Part shown: positions 10,131 to 34,213 of the stretch, one piece after another
How the letters are laid out: each line of letters opens with the position of its first letter
Position numbering within the stretch: the stretch's first letter is position 1
Assembly (NCBI GenBank): GCA_001767495.1
Contig: MELA01000025.1
Span: 1-36,847, forward strand
DNA length: 36,847 nucleotides
Direction of reading: 5' to 3'
Origin: Acidobacteria bacterium RIFCSPLOWO2_12_FULL_65_11
GTDB taxonomy: Bacteria > Acidobacteriota > Vicinamibacteria > Vicinamibacterales > CAVVIG01
Notes under the pieces: model-generated
Database searches by the model: none
What the model saw: only the letters and a program-made list of their open reading frames with translations
What the model was told of the DNA's origin: nothing
Program-made: the position numbers and the translations under genes

Positions 10131-12234
10131 CGGTCGCCCTGCGACGCACGTCGAGGGCGAGCGCCAGGTTGTTTCTGGCCGACTGGAGATCGGGATTCAG
10201 TCGGACCGCCTCGGCGAAGTGCTCGATGGCTTCGTCCAGCCGGTCTTGTGAGGCGAGCGCGATGCCGAGCTGGTTGTGGGCGTCGGCGTCGGTTGGCAGC
10301 GAGGAGAGAAGCTTCCGACTTTCCTGCTCCAAATCAACAACCCTCCGTTGGTTGAAGAGTGGACGAAGCAGCTCCCGGCGGGCGGTGACGTTCGACGGAT
10401 CGATGCGCAGGGCGTGTTCGAGCGTGGAGATGGCCTCTTGATCGTGTCCGCTCGAGACGAGCGCCGTCCCTAGATCGATCAGCACGGCGAGATCGTCGGG
10501 CCTCAGCCGGAGATATTCGCGGTACTCCTGCGCTGCGCCGTCGAAGTCCTTGCGCGAGGCGAGCACGTTGCCCAGGTTCACGCGTCCCCGCGCGTACTCC
10601 GGAGCGGCCGCAACAATCTTACGAAGCTCATCGAGTGCCCTGTCGTGGTCACCCAGGCCCTGAAGCGCGTTGGCGAGCTCCTCGCGCGCCGAGAGCATCT
10701 GCGGGTGCTTGGGTCGTAGCCGCATGAAGGCTTCGATCTCATCCACGCCACCGCGTACGTCCCCACGCTGAATGAGCGCAGAGCCAAGGGGGAACCGGGC
10801 ATCGGGCCAGTCTGGCGCCCCAATCTGCAGATGCCTGATTGACTCGTCAATCTGACCCGCATCGCGGTAGTAGACGGCGATATTGTTATGGGCTCTTGCA
10901 TGCGGTCGCCGGTCGAGCACGGTTTGCCACAGGCCGAGGCCGGTTCGATACTCCACGTTTCGGGCGACCGTTGCTGCACCCAGGCCGATCAGGGAAAGGA
11001 CGACGATCGCCGAGACAGCAGCTCGGGCGGCGACCGACGGCACTTCGACGCTATTCGGACCATGGGAACGCGCAATCAGGTGTCGACATAGCAGCCGACC
11101 GAGAAGCACCACCATCACGACCACAGCTATGAGCGGTAGATACATGCGGCGCTCGGCGGCCACCTCTGTCGGGATGGCGATGACGCTCGAGGCGGGCGCG
11201 AGCGTGATGAAGAACCACGCGCCCCAGAAGCCGAACGTCGGGACGCGGATGAGCGCGACTACCGTCAGCGCAGCGAGCGCGAGCACGAGCAGTGCGCTCG
11301 GCCAGACGTCCAGGACGGTCAGGGGCAGGGGAATTCCGTAATCGAAGATGAGTGCTCGTGGCCAGAAGGAGAGGCGGAGGTACTGAGCGACCGCGGGAGC
11401 CTGGTTAAGGAGATAGGTCCAGCGTGTCACGTAGAGATCGAAGCCGTCGGCGCTGAAGAATGGTGTCTGAAAGGCAAACGCGACAAAGAGCAGCCAACCG
11501 GCCGCCAGGCCGAGGTACAGGTGGAGGCGAGCCCGAAACGCGGCCGAAAACGATGGATACGCGAAGATGCGATCGCAGAGCACGACGACAATCGGTGCGG
11601 TGACCATCGTTTCTTTGGCGCAGATACCGCCGATGTTCGAGACAATCGCGATGATTGCCCAGCGGCTCGACGGTTTGCCGTCCCACGTCCGAATCGCTGC
11701 GTACAGCGTCAACAGGTAGAAGAGTCCCATCAGCGACTCGGTCCGCTGTGTGAGGTAATCGACGGCATCGGTATTGAGCGGGTGGACGACCCACACCAGC
11801 GCGCAGACCAGGGCCACCAGATCCGGACTCGCGTGTGCGTCCGCGGCCAGCATGCGACCCAGGATTCTGCGAACGACGCCAAACAGCGCGAGCGCGGCCA
11901 GGACGTGAATGGTGACGTTCACCAGGTGATATCCCTGAACCCGCAGGCCACCCACGGCAAAATTCGCCGCGAACGTCAGGTTGGCGAGCGGTCTGCCGGC
12001 CACCGGCGTCTTTCGCGGCGGTTGGAGGGCTGATGTTGGTGGCCAGAGTTGGCGGATGCTCGTGTTGTCGACGATAGTCGGGAGATCGTCGAAGACGAAC
12101 GGCCCGCTGAGACTGTTCGCGTACACGCCGAATCCCGCCACAACAATGGCGAGCACGGCAAGACGCTCGTGAAATCGTTGCGCCGATCGCGACGGCGCTC
12201 CAGTCGATGGTGTGGGACGTCGACGTGTGGTCAT
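10111..12234 (-). CDS. TMTC-like polytopic membrane protein with C-terminal TPR repeats
   Basis: I start at ATG 12234 (MTTRRRPTP), giving 707 aa; the track's extra 80 residues are an overlap artefact. Residues about 25-440 hold about 10-12 membrane helices with TMTC-type landmarks: NSLSGPFVFDDLPTIVDN, GRPLANLTFAANFAVGG, YHLVNVTIHVLAALALF, YLTQRTESLMGLFYLLTLY, CAKETMVTAPIVVVLCDR and ERRMYLPLIAV. The C-terminal about 240 residues are TPR units (ARGRVNLGNVLASRKDFDGAAQEYREYL and similar). Eukaryotic TMTC proteins are GT-C O-mannosyltransferases; bacterial members are poorly described, so glycosyl transfer is inferred. The FDD near the N-terminus would be the expected GT-C acidic motif. Its ATG overlaps the stop of the upstream glycosyltransferase gene by one base. 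Confidence 0.85.
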   Translation of the reverse strand: MTTRRRPTPSTGAPSRSAQRFHERLAVLAIVVAGFGVYANSLSGPFVFDDLPTIVDNTSIRQLWPPTSALQPPRKTPVAGRPLANLTFAANFAVGGLRVQGYHLVNVTIHVLAALALFGVVRRILGRMLAADAHASPDLVALVCALVWVVHPLNTDAVDYLTQRTESLMGLFYLLTLYAAIRTWDGKPSSRWAIIAIVSNIGGICAKETMVTAPIVVVLCDRIFAYPSFSAAFRARLHLYLGLAAGWLLFVAFAFQTPFFSADGFDLYVTRWTYLLNQAPAVAQYLRLSFWPRALIFDYGIPLPLTVLDVWPSALLVLALAALTVVALIRVPTFGFWGAWFFITLAPASSVIAIPTEVAAERRMYLPLIAVVVMVVLLGRLLCRHLIARSHGPNSVEVPSVAARAAVSAIVVLSLIGLGAATVARNVEYRTGLGLWQTVLDRRPHARAHNNIAVYYRDAGQIDESIRHLQIGAPDWPDARFPLGSALIQRGDVRGGVDEIEAFMRLRPKHPQMLSAREELANALQGLGDHDRALDELRKIVAAAPEYARGRVNLGNVLASRKDFDGAAQEYREYLRLRPDDLAVLIDLGTALVSSGHDQEAISTLEHALRIDPSNVTARRELLRPLFNQRRVVDLEQESRKLLSSLPTDADAHNQLGIALASQDRLDEAIEHFAEAVRLNPDLQSARNNLALALDVRRRATATPSRR

Positions 12235-13277
12235 CAGTGACCCAACTTCAAGATCTCTGTGGCTGCGACCTCCGCCCCGTCGGTCCGCGGCTGCTCGGGC
12301 GGCGCCGGCTGGTGCAGCAAGGCGTCGATGGCGTCGGACCATCGACCGCCGAGCAGATCGTCCTGTGAAATGTGACGGCACCGAAGGACCCGTGGCATCT
12401 GGTCGACGAACACATCGTATTCGACGAAGTGTCCGCGCGATGTGTACAGGAGCGGGGTGTCGTGCGCGACGCACTCCGACACGATGCCATAACCCGGCTT
12501 GCTGACCACGACGTCGGCCGCTGTGACGATGTCCTGATGGGTCAGCCCATCCGGCGGATGCTGGTTGACGGTGACGATCGTGAACGGCGCGCGCCGCGAC
12601 CTGTCGTCGAACGGCAGCGGAACAGGATAGCCGCCAAAGGTCGCGAGGACCAGTCGTGCATCGTCAGCCACGCCGAGCACGCGTCTGGTCTCGCGACGGT
12701 CGCGGGTCGCACGCCGCGCGATGAACGGGATATCTCGAATGAGGCCGGCCATGGGCTCGAACCCGCCATGAAGCGGCAGGCGCAGCGCTAGCGTGGCGGC
12801 GGCGTACGCCCGGCGGATGATCGAGATCGCGTCGGGTGCGATCCGCTCGAAGGCAGGGTAGGCGTCGTAGATCCAGTCCCAGGTGAAGTTCGCGATGGCG
12901 ACCGACGCCAGGCCGGCGCGGCGGGCCGCCGCGAAGGCAATTGGCGGGACGTCGCCGAGCACGATATCGGCGGCGACCTGGCGGAGAAGCGTCGCCTCGT
13001 GTTCCACCCGCCGATCGAAGTTGCGATAGAAGCTCTCTGCGCGTCTCGCCGTGCCCTCCTCGTCCGGCCTCAGGCCGTCGATCTGCACCACGCCAACATC
13101 AGGCTCGAATGGCTGCACCTCAATCGGGATTGCAGCACGTTCGAACAGCCACTGAGGAGCGTCGGTACGAACGATGAAGCGCACGTCGTCACGCCTCGCG
13201 CCGATGGCCCTGATGAGCTCGATCGAGCGTGTCGCGTGGCCGAAGCCGTGACCGGAAATGTAGTAGACGATCAGCAT
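12234..13277 (-). CDS. Glycosyltransferase resembling the N-terminal domain of plant L-arabinokinase
   Basis: The 347-aa product starts MLIVYYISGHGFGHATRSIELIRAI, closely resembling the N-terminal domain of plant L-arabinokinase (YYVTGHGFGHATR). Further matching blocks are ADIVLGDVPPIAFAAARRAGL, SVAIANFTWDWIYDAY, LIRDIPFIARRATRDRRETRRVLGV and the nucleotide-sugar-binding type block VVSKPGYGIVSECVAHDTPLLYTSRGHFVEY. It is a GT-B-like fold and there is no GHMP kinase domain attached. Activity is therefore unknown; nucleotide-sugar glycosyl transfer is the likely reaction. I use the ATG at 13277 because the longer ORF start at 13304 lies in a REP-like hairpin. It is coupled to the TMTC-like gene, suggesting both act on the same glycoconjugate. 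No clear Shine-Dalgarno is present. Confidence 0.85.
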   Translation of the reverse strand: MLIVYYISGHGFGHATRSIELIRAIGARRDDVRFIVRTDAPQWLFERAAIPIEVQPFEPDVGVVQIDGLRPDEEGTARRAESFYRNFDRRVEHEATLLRQVAADIVLGDVPPIAFAAARRAGLASVAIANFTWDWIYDAYPAFERIAPDAISIIRRAYAAATLALRLPLHGGFEPMAGLIRDIPFIARRATRDRRETRRVLGVADDARLVLATFGGYPVPLPFDDRSRRAPFTIVTVNQHPPDGLTHQDIVTAADVVVSKPGYGIVSECVAHDTPLLYTSRGHFVEYDVFVDQMPRVLRCRHISQDDLLGGRWSDAIDALLHQPAPPEQPRTDGAEVAATEILKLGH

Positions 13278-13284
13278 GTTCACG

Positions 13285-13404
13285 GTCCGACCAAGGCCGG
13301 ACACTACGTACGGGGATTATGTAGTACGGGGCGTATGTAGTACGGGAAGTATGTAGTGTCCGGCTTTAGTACGGGAAGTATGTAGTGTCCGGCTTTAGCC
13401 GGAC
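13285..13404. repeat. REP-like inverted pair with nested 16-bp tandem repeats
   Basis: Left end: a minus-strand unit GTAGTGTCCG... (13307-13285). Middle: GTAGTACGGGGCGTAT (13321-13336) and GTAGTACGGGAAGTAT (13337-13352). Then 29 bp that start as the hairpin unit and end as the 16-mer (13353-13381). Right end: GTAGTGTCCGGC-TTTA-GCCGGAC on the plus strand (13382-13404), a 7-bp stem. The whole array fills the gap between the NnrU-like gene and the glycosyltransferase gene and ends 8 bp before the ATG of the latter. Confidence 0.85.
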
Positions 13405-13407
13405 GAG

Positions 13408-14070
13408 TCAATAAATGTACGGCACGAGGCGCCAGCGCACTTGCCGCGCGTACCGAATGTAGTGCTCGCCGAACGCATTGACGAGCGAGCGCTCCTCCAG
13501 GGGAACGGCCACCAGCACGTACGTCGATGAGATCGCCGCAAAGATCAGACGGTCGGCCGTCATGTGTGCGGCCCCAACCACCGCCAAGACCCACCCGAGG
13601 TACAGCGGATGGCGCACCCACCGGTACGGACCATCAACGTGCAACGCTCTTCCCGGGATCTGCGGCGTGATGCCCGCCAGTTCCAGCGCATCGATCCGTG
13701 CAACCGAGCGAGCGATGAGCCAGAGGCCTGCGAGCTGCACGCCCGCGTGCGCCACGGCGCGCCAGCCGGTGACGTGATAGACCTCGCTCCCAACGGGCTG
13801 CCAAAGGGCCAGGACGATGAGCAGGAGCACACTCGCCGTCCAGACGTACACCGATCGGAGCAGTCGATCGGGAATGACTCGCGCCACATGCGCCTTCATC
13901 CATGGACGCGCGAACAGACTGTGATGGAGCGCAAAGACGGCGAACAAGGCGACATTGCCGGCCCCGGCTAGCATGCCGCCGCCGACCCTATCGGGCATTC
14001 CCCACGTGACGAGATACGAATACGCGCAGACCAGGAGAGATACGGCGAACAACCCGCCGCCCGTCCACAC
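13408..14070 (-). CDS. NnrU/isoprenylcysteine methyltransferase-like membrane protein
   Basis: The 220-aa protein has about six membrane helices (LFAVSLLVCAYSYLV, GNVALFAVFALHHSLFA, VYVWTASVLLLIVLALW and others). The C-terminal half carries the methyltransferase signature DGPYRWVRHPLYLGWVLAVVG...VPLEERSLVNAFGEHYIRYARQV, found in ICMT, PEMT and NnrU proteins, where RHPxY and EE bind SAM. The ALHHSLFARPWMK block is NnrU-like. The methyl acceptor is not predictable; lipids or isoprenoid-linked groups are typical. The start is GTG 14070. TATACT on the minus strand lies about 30 nt upstream, in a 46-bp divergent gap shared with the ketoacyl synthase gene. A second, unrelated-looking ICMT-like protein is encoded 3 kb away. 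Confidence 0.8.
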   Translation of the reverse strand: MWTGGGLFAVSLLVCAYSYLVTWGMPDRVGGGMLAGAGNVALFAVFALHHSLFARPWMKAHVARVIPDRLLRSVYVWTASVLLLIVLALWQPVGSEVYHVTGWRAVAHAGVQLAGLWLIARSVARIDALELAGITPQIPGRALHVDGPYRWVRHPLYLGWVLAVVGAAHMTADRLIFAAISSTYVLVAVPLEERSLVNAFGEHYIRYARQVRWRLVPYIY

Positions 14071-29467: not shown

Positions 29468-30475
29468 ATGCTAGACTCAACACTCGTGACGACTGCCACT
29501 CCTACTCAGCCCGCGATCCGGCACGACTGGACACTCGACGAGATCGAATCGATTTACGCCGCGCCGCTGTCCGACCTCATCTTCCGGGCCCAGCAGACCC
29601 ATCGCGCCTGGCACCGTGCCGATGAGGTGCAGGGCTGCGTCCTGCTGAGCATCAAGACCGGCGGATGCCCGGAGGACTGTGGGTACTGCCCGCAGTCGGC
29701 GCACTACCAGACCGGAGTGGCGCGGGCCGAACTGGTCGACCTCGAGGAGATGACCGAGGCGGCCAGACGCGCTCGCGCTCAGGGGGCGACGCGCTTCTGC
29801 ATGGGCGCTGCCTGGCGCGATGTCCCCGACGGCCAGCCGTTTGCGCGCGTCCTCGAGATGGTGCGGGCCGTGCGCGGGCTCGGCATGGAGGCGTGCTGCA
29901 CGCTCGGCATGCTCACCGACGATCAGGCCGAAGCGCTCGCGGAGGCCGGGTTGACGGCCTACAACCACAACCTCGACACCGCACCGGAGTTCTACGGCGA
30001 GATCATCACGACGCGGACCTACGACGATCGGCTGGCGACACTGGCGCGCGTGAGAGCAGCCGGTGTCACGGTGTGCTGCGGCGGCATCATCGGCATGGGC
30101 GAGAGCCGGCGCGTCCGCTGCGGCCTGCTGCGGCAGCTTGCGACGCTCGACCCGCATCCCGAGAACGTGCCGATCAATCTTCTGGTCCGCGTCTCGGGCA
30201 CGCCGCTCGGCGACCTGCCGCCAGAAGATCCGATCGAGCTGGTTCGGACGATTGCCAGCGCGCGCATCCTGATGCCCGCCTCGACCGTCCGCCTGAGCGC
30301 GGGCCGCCTGTCGCTCTCAGACGAGGCGCAGGCGCTCTGTTTTGTCGCCGGCGCCAATTCGGTGTTTCTCGGTGATCGCCTGCTGACGACGCCCAATCCA
30401 GGTGCCGATCGTGACGCGCAGCTGTTTGAGAAGCTGGGGCTGCGACTGCAGGAGCAGAGCCCACCGACGACGTAG
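29468..30475 (+). CDS. bioB: Biotin synthase
   Basis: BioB is the radical-SAM enzyme that inserts sulfur into dethiobiotin. The 335-aa product has the radical-SAM Cys motif in [20 protein letters not shown], then [64 protein letters not shown], and the auxiliary-cluster region [14 protein letters not shown] and [34 protein letters not shown]. Length fits. ATG 29468 directly follows the zinc-ribbon stop; a later GTG (29486) lies 8 nt after a -10-like TAGACT, so the start is not certain. It is first in bioBFDA. Its stop codon is part of the GTAG of a REP-like hairpin. Confidence 0.95.
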
Positions 30476-30494
30476 CGTCCGCCTTCAGGCGGAC
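30472..30494 (+). repeat. Solitary GTAG-hairpin (REP-like) between bioB and bioF
   Basis: GTAG then C, then GTCCGCC-TTCA-GGCGGAC, a 7-bp stem with a 4-nt loop, related to the units at 13285-13404 and 34116-34213. The TAG of GTAG is the bioB stop codon. It is 16 bp from the bioF start. Confidence 0.85.
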
Positions 30495-33824: not shown

Positions 33825-34125
33825 GCGTCTCGTCGCGCTGAGGCAGCCGGCGCGTGCCAGACGCATCGCCCGGGCGCTGTGGATTGCCTGGGCGATTGTG
33901 GTCTGGAACGTGGTGTTCGACCGCGTGATCGTCGTCGCCGGCCGTGAGTATGTGTACGCGGCGACGGTCGCGGCGAAAGGCGCAGGCCCTTACGCGCGGA
34001 TGGACGACTGGATGCGCCCCGCCGTCACGCGCGCGCGATGGAGCGCAACAGCAGCGGGCGCCACGATTCTTTTTGTCGGACTTGTCGCCGTGCAGCTTTC
34101 AGTCCGTCGATCACGGTCCGGCTGA
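33793..34125 (+). CDS. Hypothetical two-helix membrane protein
   Basis: The 110-aa product has two hydrophobic segments (ALWIAWAIVVWNVVFDRVIVVAG and SATAAGATILFVGLVAVQLSV) separated by about 40 polar residues that contain YVYAATVAAKGAGPYARMDDWM. I do not recognise a family. The start is uncertain: GTG 33793 and a later in-frame GTG at 33817 both lie within an octamer repeat array, and there is no Shine-Dalgarno. It is bounded by a GC-rich hairpin element upstream and a REP-like inverted pair downstream, so its expression may be set by these repeats. Coding status rests on length, composition and the membrane segments. Confidence 0.6.
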   Translation: MLRFVGAEVRRRLVALRQPARARRIARALWIAWAIVVWNVVFDRVIVVAGREYVYAATVAAKGAGPYARMDDWMRPAVTRARWSATAAGATILFVGLVAVQLSVRRSRSG

Positions 34126-34213
34126 AGCCGGACACTACATCTGTGGTTTAGATATCTGTGGTTTAGACATCTGTGGTTGAGCTATCTGTCGTAGTGTCCG
34201 CCTTTAGGCGGAC
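34116..34213. repeat. REP-like inverted pair flanking a 15-bp tandem array
   Basis: The left unit is on the minus strand (GTAGTGTCCGGC...; 34138-34116; stem GTCCGGC-TGAA-GCCGGAC). The middle has ATCTGTGGTTTAGAT, ATCTGTGGTTTAGAC and ATCTGTGGTTGAGCT plus a partial ATCTGT (34139-34189). The right unit is on the plus strand (GTAGTGTCCGCC-TTTA-GGCGGAC; 34191-34213). It separates the hypothetical membrane protein gene from the end of the M28-like gene and has the same plan as the array at 13285-13404. Confidence 0.88.

Follow-up and report, generated by a model that had tools for sequence, protein, structure and literature searches.

The closest described systems are the GTAG-tagged REP families, the REPtrons of RAYT/TnpAREP, the REPINs of Pseudomonas fluorescens and the enterobacterial BIMEs, and the present genome shares features with each. 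The account of the GTAG-tagged families (Di Nocera et al. 2013, PMC3733652) describes a short, high-copy palindrome with an unpaired GTAG foot, HH, TT (tail-to-tail) and HT (head-to-tail) groupings, variable TT spacers, heterodimers and head-to-tail reiteration that includes flanking DNA, and all of these recur here. REPtrons (Nunvar et al. 2010, PMC2817692; PMC8266576, 2021) comprise a Y1 gene bracketed by inverted REPs, an arrangement also present in this genome. The REPINs of P. fluorescens (Bertels and Rainey 2011, PMC3116915) are similar in their inverted doublets and in tandem units that include flanks; their clustered REPs are somewhat better conserved than singlets, a tendency that may also exist here. 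Enterobacterial BIMEs share the alternating REP orientation and the local tandem amplification. The cleavage by the RAYT enzyme has been studied in vitro.

The window is the whole stretch of DNA analysed (36,847 nucleotides, contig C25 of a 3.55 Mb genome in 153 contigs), and its features are collected in Table 1. The element at 13285-13404 is an inward-facing (tail-to-tail) pair of a high-copy, non-autonomous GTAG-tagged REP and occupies 120 of the 130 bp separating two minus-strand genes. The layout given in the original prediction was borne out. The element consists of two 23-nt GTAG hairpins with feet inward enclosing 16-bp tandem units, and the hybrid unit named in that prediction is identical to the initial 16 nt of a hairpin. 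At the junction of the 29-bp duplication a TAG is common to the hairpin loop and the flank (microhomology).

Table 1. Features of the REP elements in the window and genes next to the first element
Feature	Coordinates	Strand	Basis or remark
Glycosyltransferase-like gene	12234-13277	-	neighbour of first element
REP hairpin, G-stem type, degenerate (3 mismatches to consensus), foot inward	13285-13307	-	sequence and pattern match
Tandem units, period 16: GTACGGGGATTAT / GTAGTACGGGGCGTAT / GTAGTACGGGAAGTAT	13308-13352	.	
Unit GTACGGGGATTAT (13 bp)	13308-13320		
Unit GTAGTACGGGGCGTAT (16 bp)	13321-13336		
Unit GTAGTACGGGAAGTAT (16 bp)	13337-13352		
Exact 29-bp direct duplication (13338-13366, 13367-13395), flank plus 5' part of REP	13338-13395	+	
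Truncated REP within array, GTAGTGTCCGGCTTTA: foot, 5' arm, loop	13353-13368	+	
Unit GTACGGGAAGTAT (13 bp)	13369-13381		
REP hairpin GTAGTGTCCGGCTTTAGCCGGAC, perfect copy	13382-13404	+	pattern match
ICMT/PEMT-like methyltransferase gene	13408-14070	-	neighbour of first element
Lone REP at bioB-bioF junction	30472-30494	+	pattern match
REP hairpin, G-stem type, 1 mismatch	34116-34138	-	pattern match
Tandem 15-bp units ATCTGTGGTTTAGAY, about 3.5 copies	34139-34190	.	
REP hairpin, C-stem type, perfect	34191-34213	+	pattern match

The hairpin is GTAGTGTCCGSCTTTAGSCGGAC, and its perfect copy at 13382-13404 folds as a 7-bp stem and a 4-nt loop after GTAGT, the family stem being GTCCGSC and the loop TTNA. 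The genome search proposed with the original prediction recovered 665 copies with at most 3 mismatches (326 forward, 339 reverse), single and paired, against no genome-wide match of the reversed-pattern control, which supports the REP identity, the GTAG foot and the high-copy family. The window alone contains five hairpin matches vs 0.00 expected (100 shuffles). These sequences agree with the definition of GTAG REPs as 20-40 nt palindromes after an unpaired GTAG or GTGG, high in copy number and mainly intergenic. Flanks and pairs were analysed in 1.86 of the 3.55 Mb, sampled as stretches partly around exact REP copies and containing 379 copies with at most 3 mismatches; according to a home-made simple gene caller, 281 of the 379 are at most 20% coding.

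A single Y1 transposase gene was identified in the genome (one PF01797 match), scoring 90.5 bits against the curated cut-off of 80 for NF047646 REP_Tyr_transpos. It is bracketed by two REP copies upstream and inverted copies downstream, so that a RAYT gene of the sort the original prediction proposed to test for is present, with the hairpin at either flank. The 665 copies, the NF047646 score and the inverted REPs around the gene together identify a REP population of the GTAG family and the RAYT cognate to it; binding and cleavage of the REP by this enzyme are predicted, and the population was presumably spread by it. The hairpin is also common among relatives from this family, in which the RAYT gene is likewise bracketed by inverted REPs. 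The eight family genomes with more than 100 hairpin copies, this one included, all have a Y1 gene (8/8), and some with fewer copies have none. In named Acidobacteria records the RAYT homologues are at 71% identity and below, and carry on their flanks the same hairpin or, where identity is lower, GTAG hairpins whose stems differ. These nearest RAYT records also indicate that the genome of the window belongs to Acidobacteriota. The flanking cognate REPs are again inverted and their stems vary with the enzyme, that is, the enzyme-REP co-evolution described for proteobacteria (PMC2817692). Head-to-tail REP arrays were seen at the upstream ends of several other Acidobacteria RAYT genes (L294-L312), one of them (L294) with five REP copies at 49-bp spacing. 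The relative G026 (L212-L241) has four Y1 matches, and its related REPs are mostly tagged GTGG, not GTAG.

The second element of the window, at 34116-34213, follows the same plan with a different, 15-bp unit, as had been noted from the sequence; its units, unlike those of the first, do not start with GTAG. The lone REP between bioB and bioF supplies the bioB stop codon, the TAG of its foot (30473-30475). The foot TAG is the stop of 24 predicted genes in the 1.86 Mb sample, bioB included, and a stop within a reverse REP terminates about 21 further genes. REPs are thus often found at, or cutting into, gene 3' ends.

The sites were also compared with those of relatives. G013 also has the methyltransferase gene next to the glycosyltransferase gene, and the 179-bp gap between the two contains no such REP. 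The bioB-bioF REP is missing from the same junction in six relatives. Both absences would fit insertion and argue against a conserved gene leader, which is ruled out for the first element by its absence at the G013 junction; the intergenic flanks are too diverged for a base-exact empty site. Heptamer-type repeats fill the G013 junction that corresponds to the first element. In relatives, such arrays (GATTGCA, GTTAGTC, GCGATGG, GCGGTCG) adjoin REPs and are also found close to genes; they were seen in L243 (G013), L184, L205, L208, L230, L383 and L394.

Three pair arrangements were found in the 1.86 Mb sample: outward pairs (GTAG outside) with gaps mostly of 0-10 bp, inward pairs with gaps of 6-150 bp and head-to-tail copies mostly 6-20 bp apart. 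Outward pairs with gaps of at most 10 bp nearly always join one G-stem and one C-stem copy (38 mixed vs 1 same-stem; L032-L151), and head-to-tail pairs are mostly same-stem (33 vs 8). The stem mixing of outward pairs fits the exclusion of long perfect palindromes suggested for other REP families (PMC3733652). The 5' flanks of outward pairs more often end in CT (34/98), the dinucleotide cut by known RAYTs.

The original prediction had raised the possibility of a separate REPIN class in which short tandem arrays arise between the two ends. On such a reading the mobile unit would be the inward pair with its spacer and the arrays internal expansions. Inward pairs are indeed common (of 106 -+ neighbours, 65 are no more than 150 bp apart), and their REPs differ slightly less from the consensus than do lone REPs (0.29 vs 0.58 mismatches, P=0.014). 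The other conservation differences from singlets are also small (HT doublets, P about 0.015; HH, P=0.11). However, the inward-pair spacers in the first 1 Mb sampled are mutually unrelated in sequence and vary from 6 to 127 bp, at odds with a REPIN as a conserved-spacer doublet replicating as a unit, and no evidence was found of the 120-bp pair moving as a single element. Moreover, arrays also adjoin lone REPs, on one defined side of each, and therefore the unit that breeds arrays is not the inverted pair. The proposed class is considered very unlikely.

Local tandem duplications have a strong bias to the GTAG side of REPs. Arrays were called as tandem repeats of period 6-40 and score of at least 10 in the 60-bp flanks, and in the 1.86 Mb sample they were identified in 39 of 233 GTAG-side flanks vs 6 of 245 on the opposite side (P=6e-8), about 2.5% of random segments carrying such arrays. 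Some of the arrays in this count are common to two facing REPs, for which reason the test on lone REPs (no other REP within 150 bp) is cleaner: 18 have an array on the GTAG side only vs 2 on the other side only (sign test P=4e-4), so that the effect persists without double counting between paired REPs. Coding bias was ruled out as its cause by the flanks with at least 40 bp of noncoding DNA beside the REP (21/77 on the GTAG side vs 1/67 on the other). Four other genomes, one with a different REP stem, gave 19/77 vs 3/106 when pooled (P=1e-5); considered by itself, G023 gave no significant bias when first tested. Since the bias holds at lone REPs, in noncoding DNA and in other genomes, the arrays need no two ends and are a property of the foot of each REP.

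Forty-one arrays have their ends at positions -5 to +22 relative to the start of the REP, most often after its first two bases, and 4 begin at the other side. Their periods are mostly 11-18 bp and their units are locus-specific, often including the first 2-18 nt of the REP. A single mobile minisatellite family was ruled out, the most similar units mostly sharing REP-derived bases. It is improbable that RAYT favours REP insertion beside existing tandem repeats, a pyrimidine-GT step being one conceivable target. Such a preference would account for the C or T that precedes GTAG in 93% of cases (the commonest context being CGTAC), for the first two REP bases, GT, shared at least by most arrays, and for arrays in relatives that are plain heptamers: several arrays on the GTAG side in G021, G026 and G060 consist of 7-8-bp repeats that include no REP bases, and these could reflect target choice instead. 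Against it, the unit continues on the far side of the REP in only 1 of 41 arrays (control 3.9%), which also rules out REPs inserted inside old arrays, and 14 of the 41 carry 5-18 nt of REP, so in these the REP was in place before the duplication.

Hairpins are known to provoke slippage. Plain replication slippage at the REP hairpin, with RAYT uninvolved, would agree with the TAG microhomology at the 29-bp junction and with the positions of array ends (stem base, end of the arm, loop), yet a palindrome looks alike from either side and the arrays lie almost only on the GTAG side. Generic noncoding hairpins, in addition, have arrays in 6 of 91 flanks, near the background of plain noncoding DNA (119/2433) and well below the 21/77 of the REP GTAG side, and this explanation is unlikely. 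Since a bare palindrome cannot distinguish its sides, the source of the bias must be the foot with its GTAG, the loop or a protein reading them, RAYT being the obvious candidate. The near confinement of the arrays to the GTAG side suggests that the cutting site of the enzyme, not the hairpin alone, triggers the local DNA duplication.

The best explanation of the locus, held at about an even chance, is a tail-to-tail REP pair spread by RAYT in which breaks directed to the GTAG foot would cause the one-sided duplications. The E. coli TnpAREP/RAYT binds the single-stranded REP, not its complement, requires GTAG, and cuts on either the 5' or the 3' side of the REP, and the resulting 3'-OH could serve as a primer for synthesis (PMC8266576); replication priming from a REP 3'-OH has been proposed before (PMC2817692). 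The published cleavage is 3' of the REP too, and by itself would not predict one-sidedness. Under foot-directed breakage, RAYT or another foot-directed activity would make single-strand breaks at the GTAG foot. Synthesis from the free 3'-OH of the flank might then run for a variable length into the displaced REP, as far as the base of the stem, the point where the 5' arm ends or beyond the loop, and the extended strand would slip back onto upstream microhomology and recopy the flank. After several such rounds a minisatellite private to the locus would lie directly against GTAG. The kind of array would depend on how much of the REP had been copied (up to the stem base, the arm end or the loop, or all of it), and extension past the whole REP would yield head-to-tail REP arrays. 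The wider proposal, tentative and below even chance, is that a domesticated single-strand transposase may generate minisatellites in a polar fashion, in that nicks made at the GTAG foot would lead to re-replication of adjacent DNA and to one-sided, private arrays. If true, each genome would bear at dozens of loci a side-specific scar that serves as in-vivo evidence for the site and mode of action of the enzyme, the variable tail-to-tail REP spacers would be explained as a RAYT by-product, and a transposase would be linked to the birth of bacterial minisatellites.

The population described here is of a known kind, GTAG REPs with their RAYT, and its one-sided micro-duplication is a feature not found described in the open-licence literature, the search of which gave no report of REP-linked minisatellites. 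Compared with the GTAG-tagged families of PMC3733652, this one belongs to Acidobacteriota and differs in stem and loop, and one-sided minisatellites with sub-REP units were not found in the available part of that account. Unlike the REPINs of P. fluorescens, the inward spacers are unrelated and variable, there is no sign of joint movement and lone REPs are frequent. Enterobacterial BIMEs have a conserved inter-REP linker, which is absent here, the units being private to each locus. Finally, the published RAYT/REPtron models deal with amplification of whole REPs or BIMEs, whereas the duplication in this genome is polar and comprises the flank together with a fragment of the REP.
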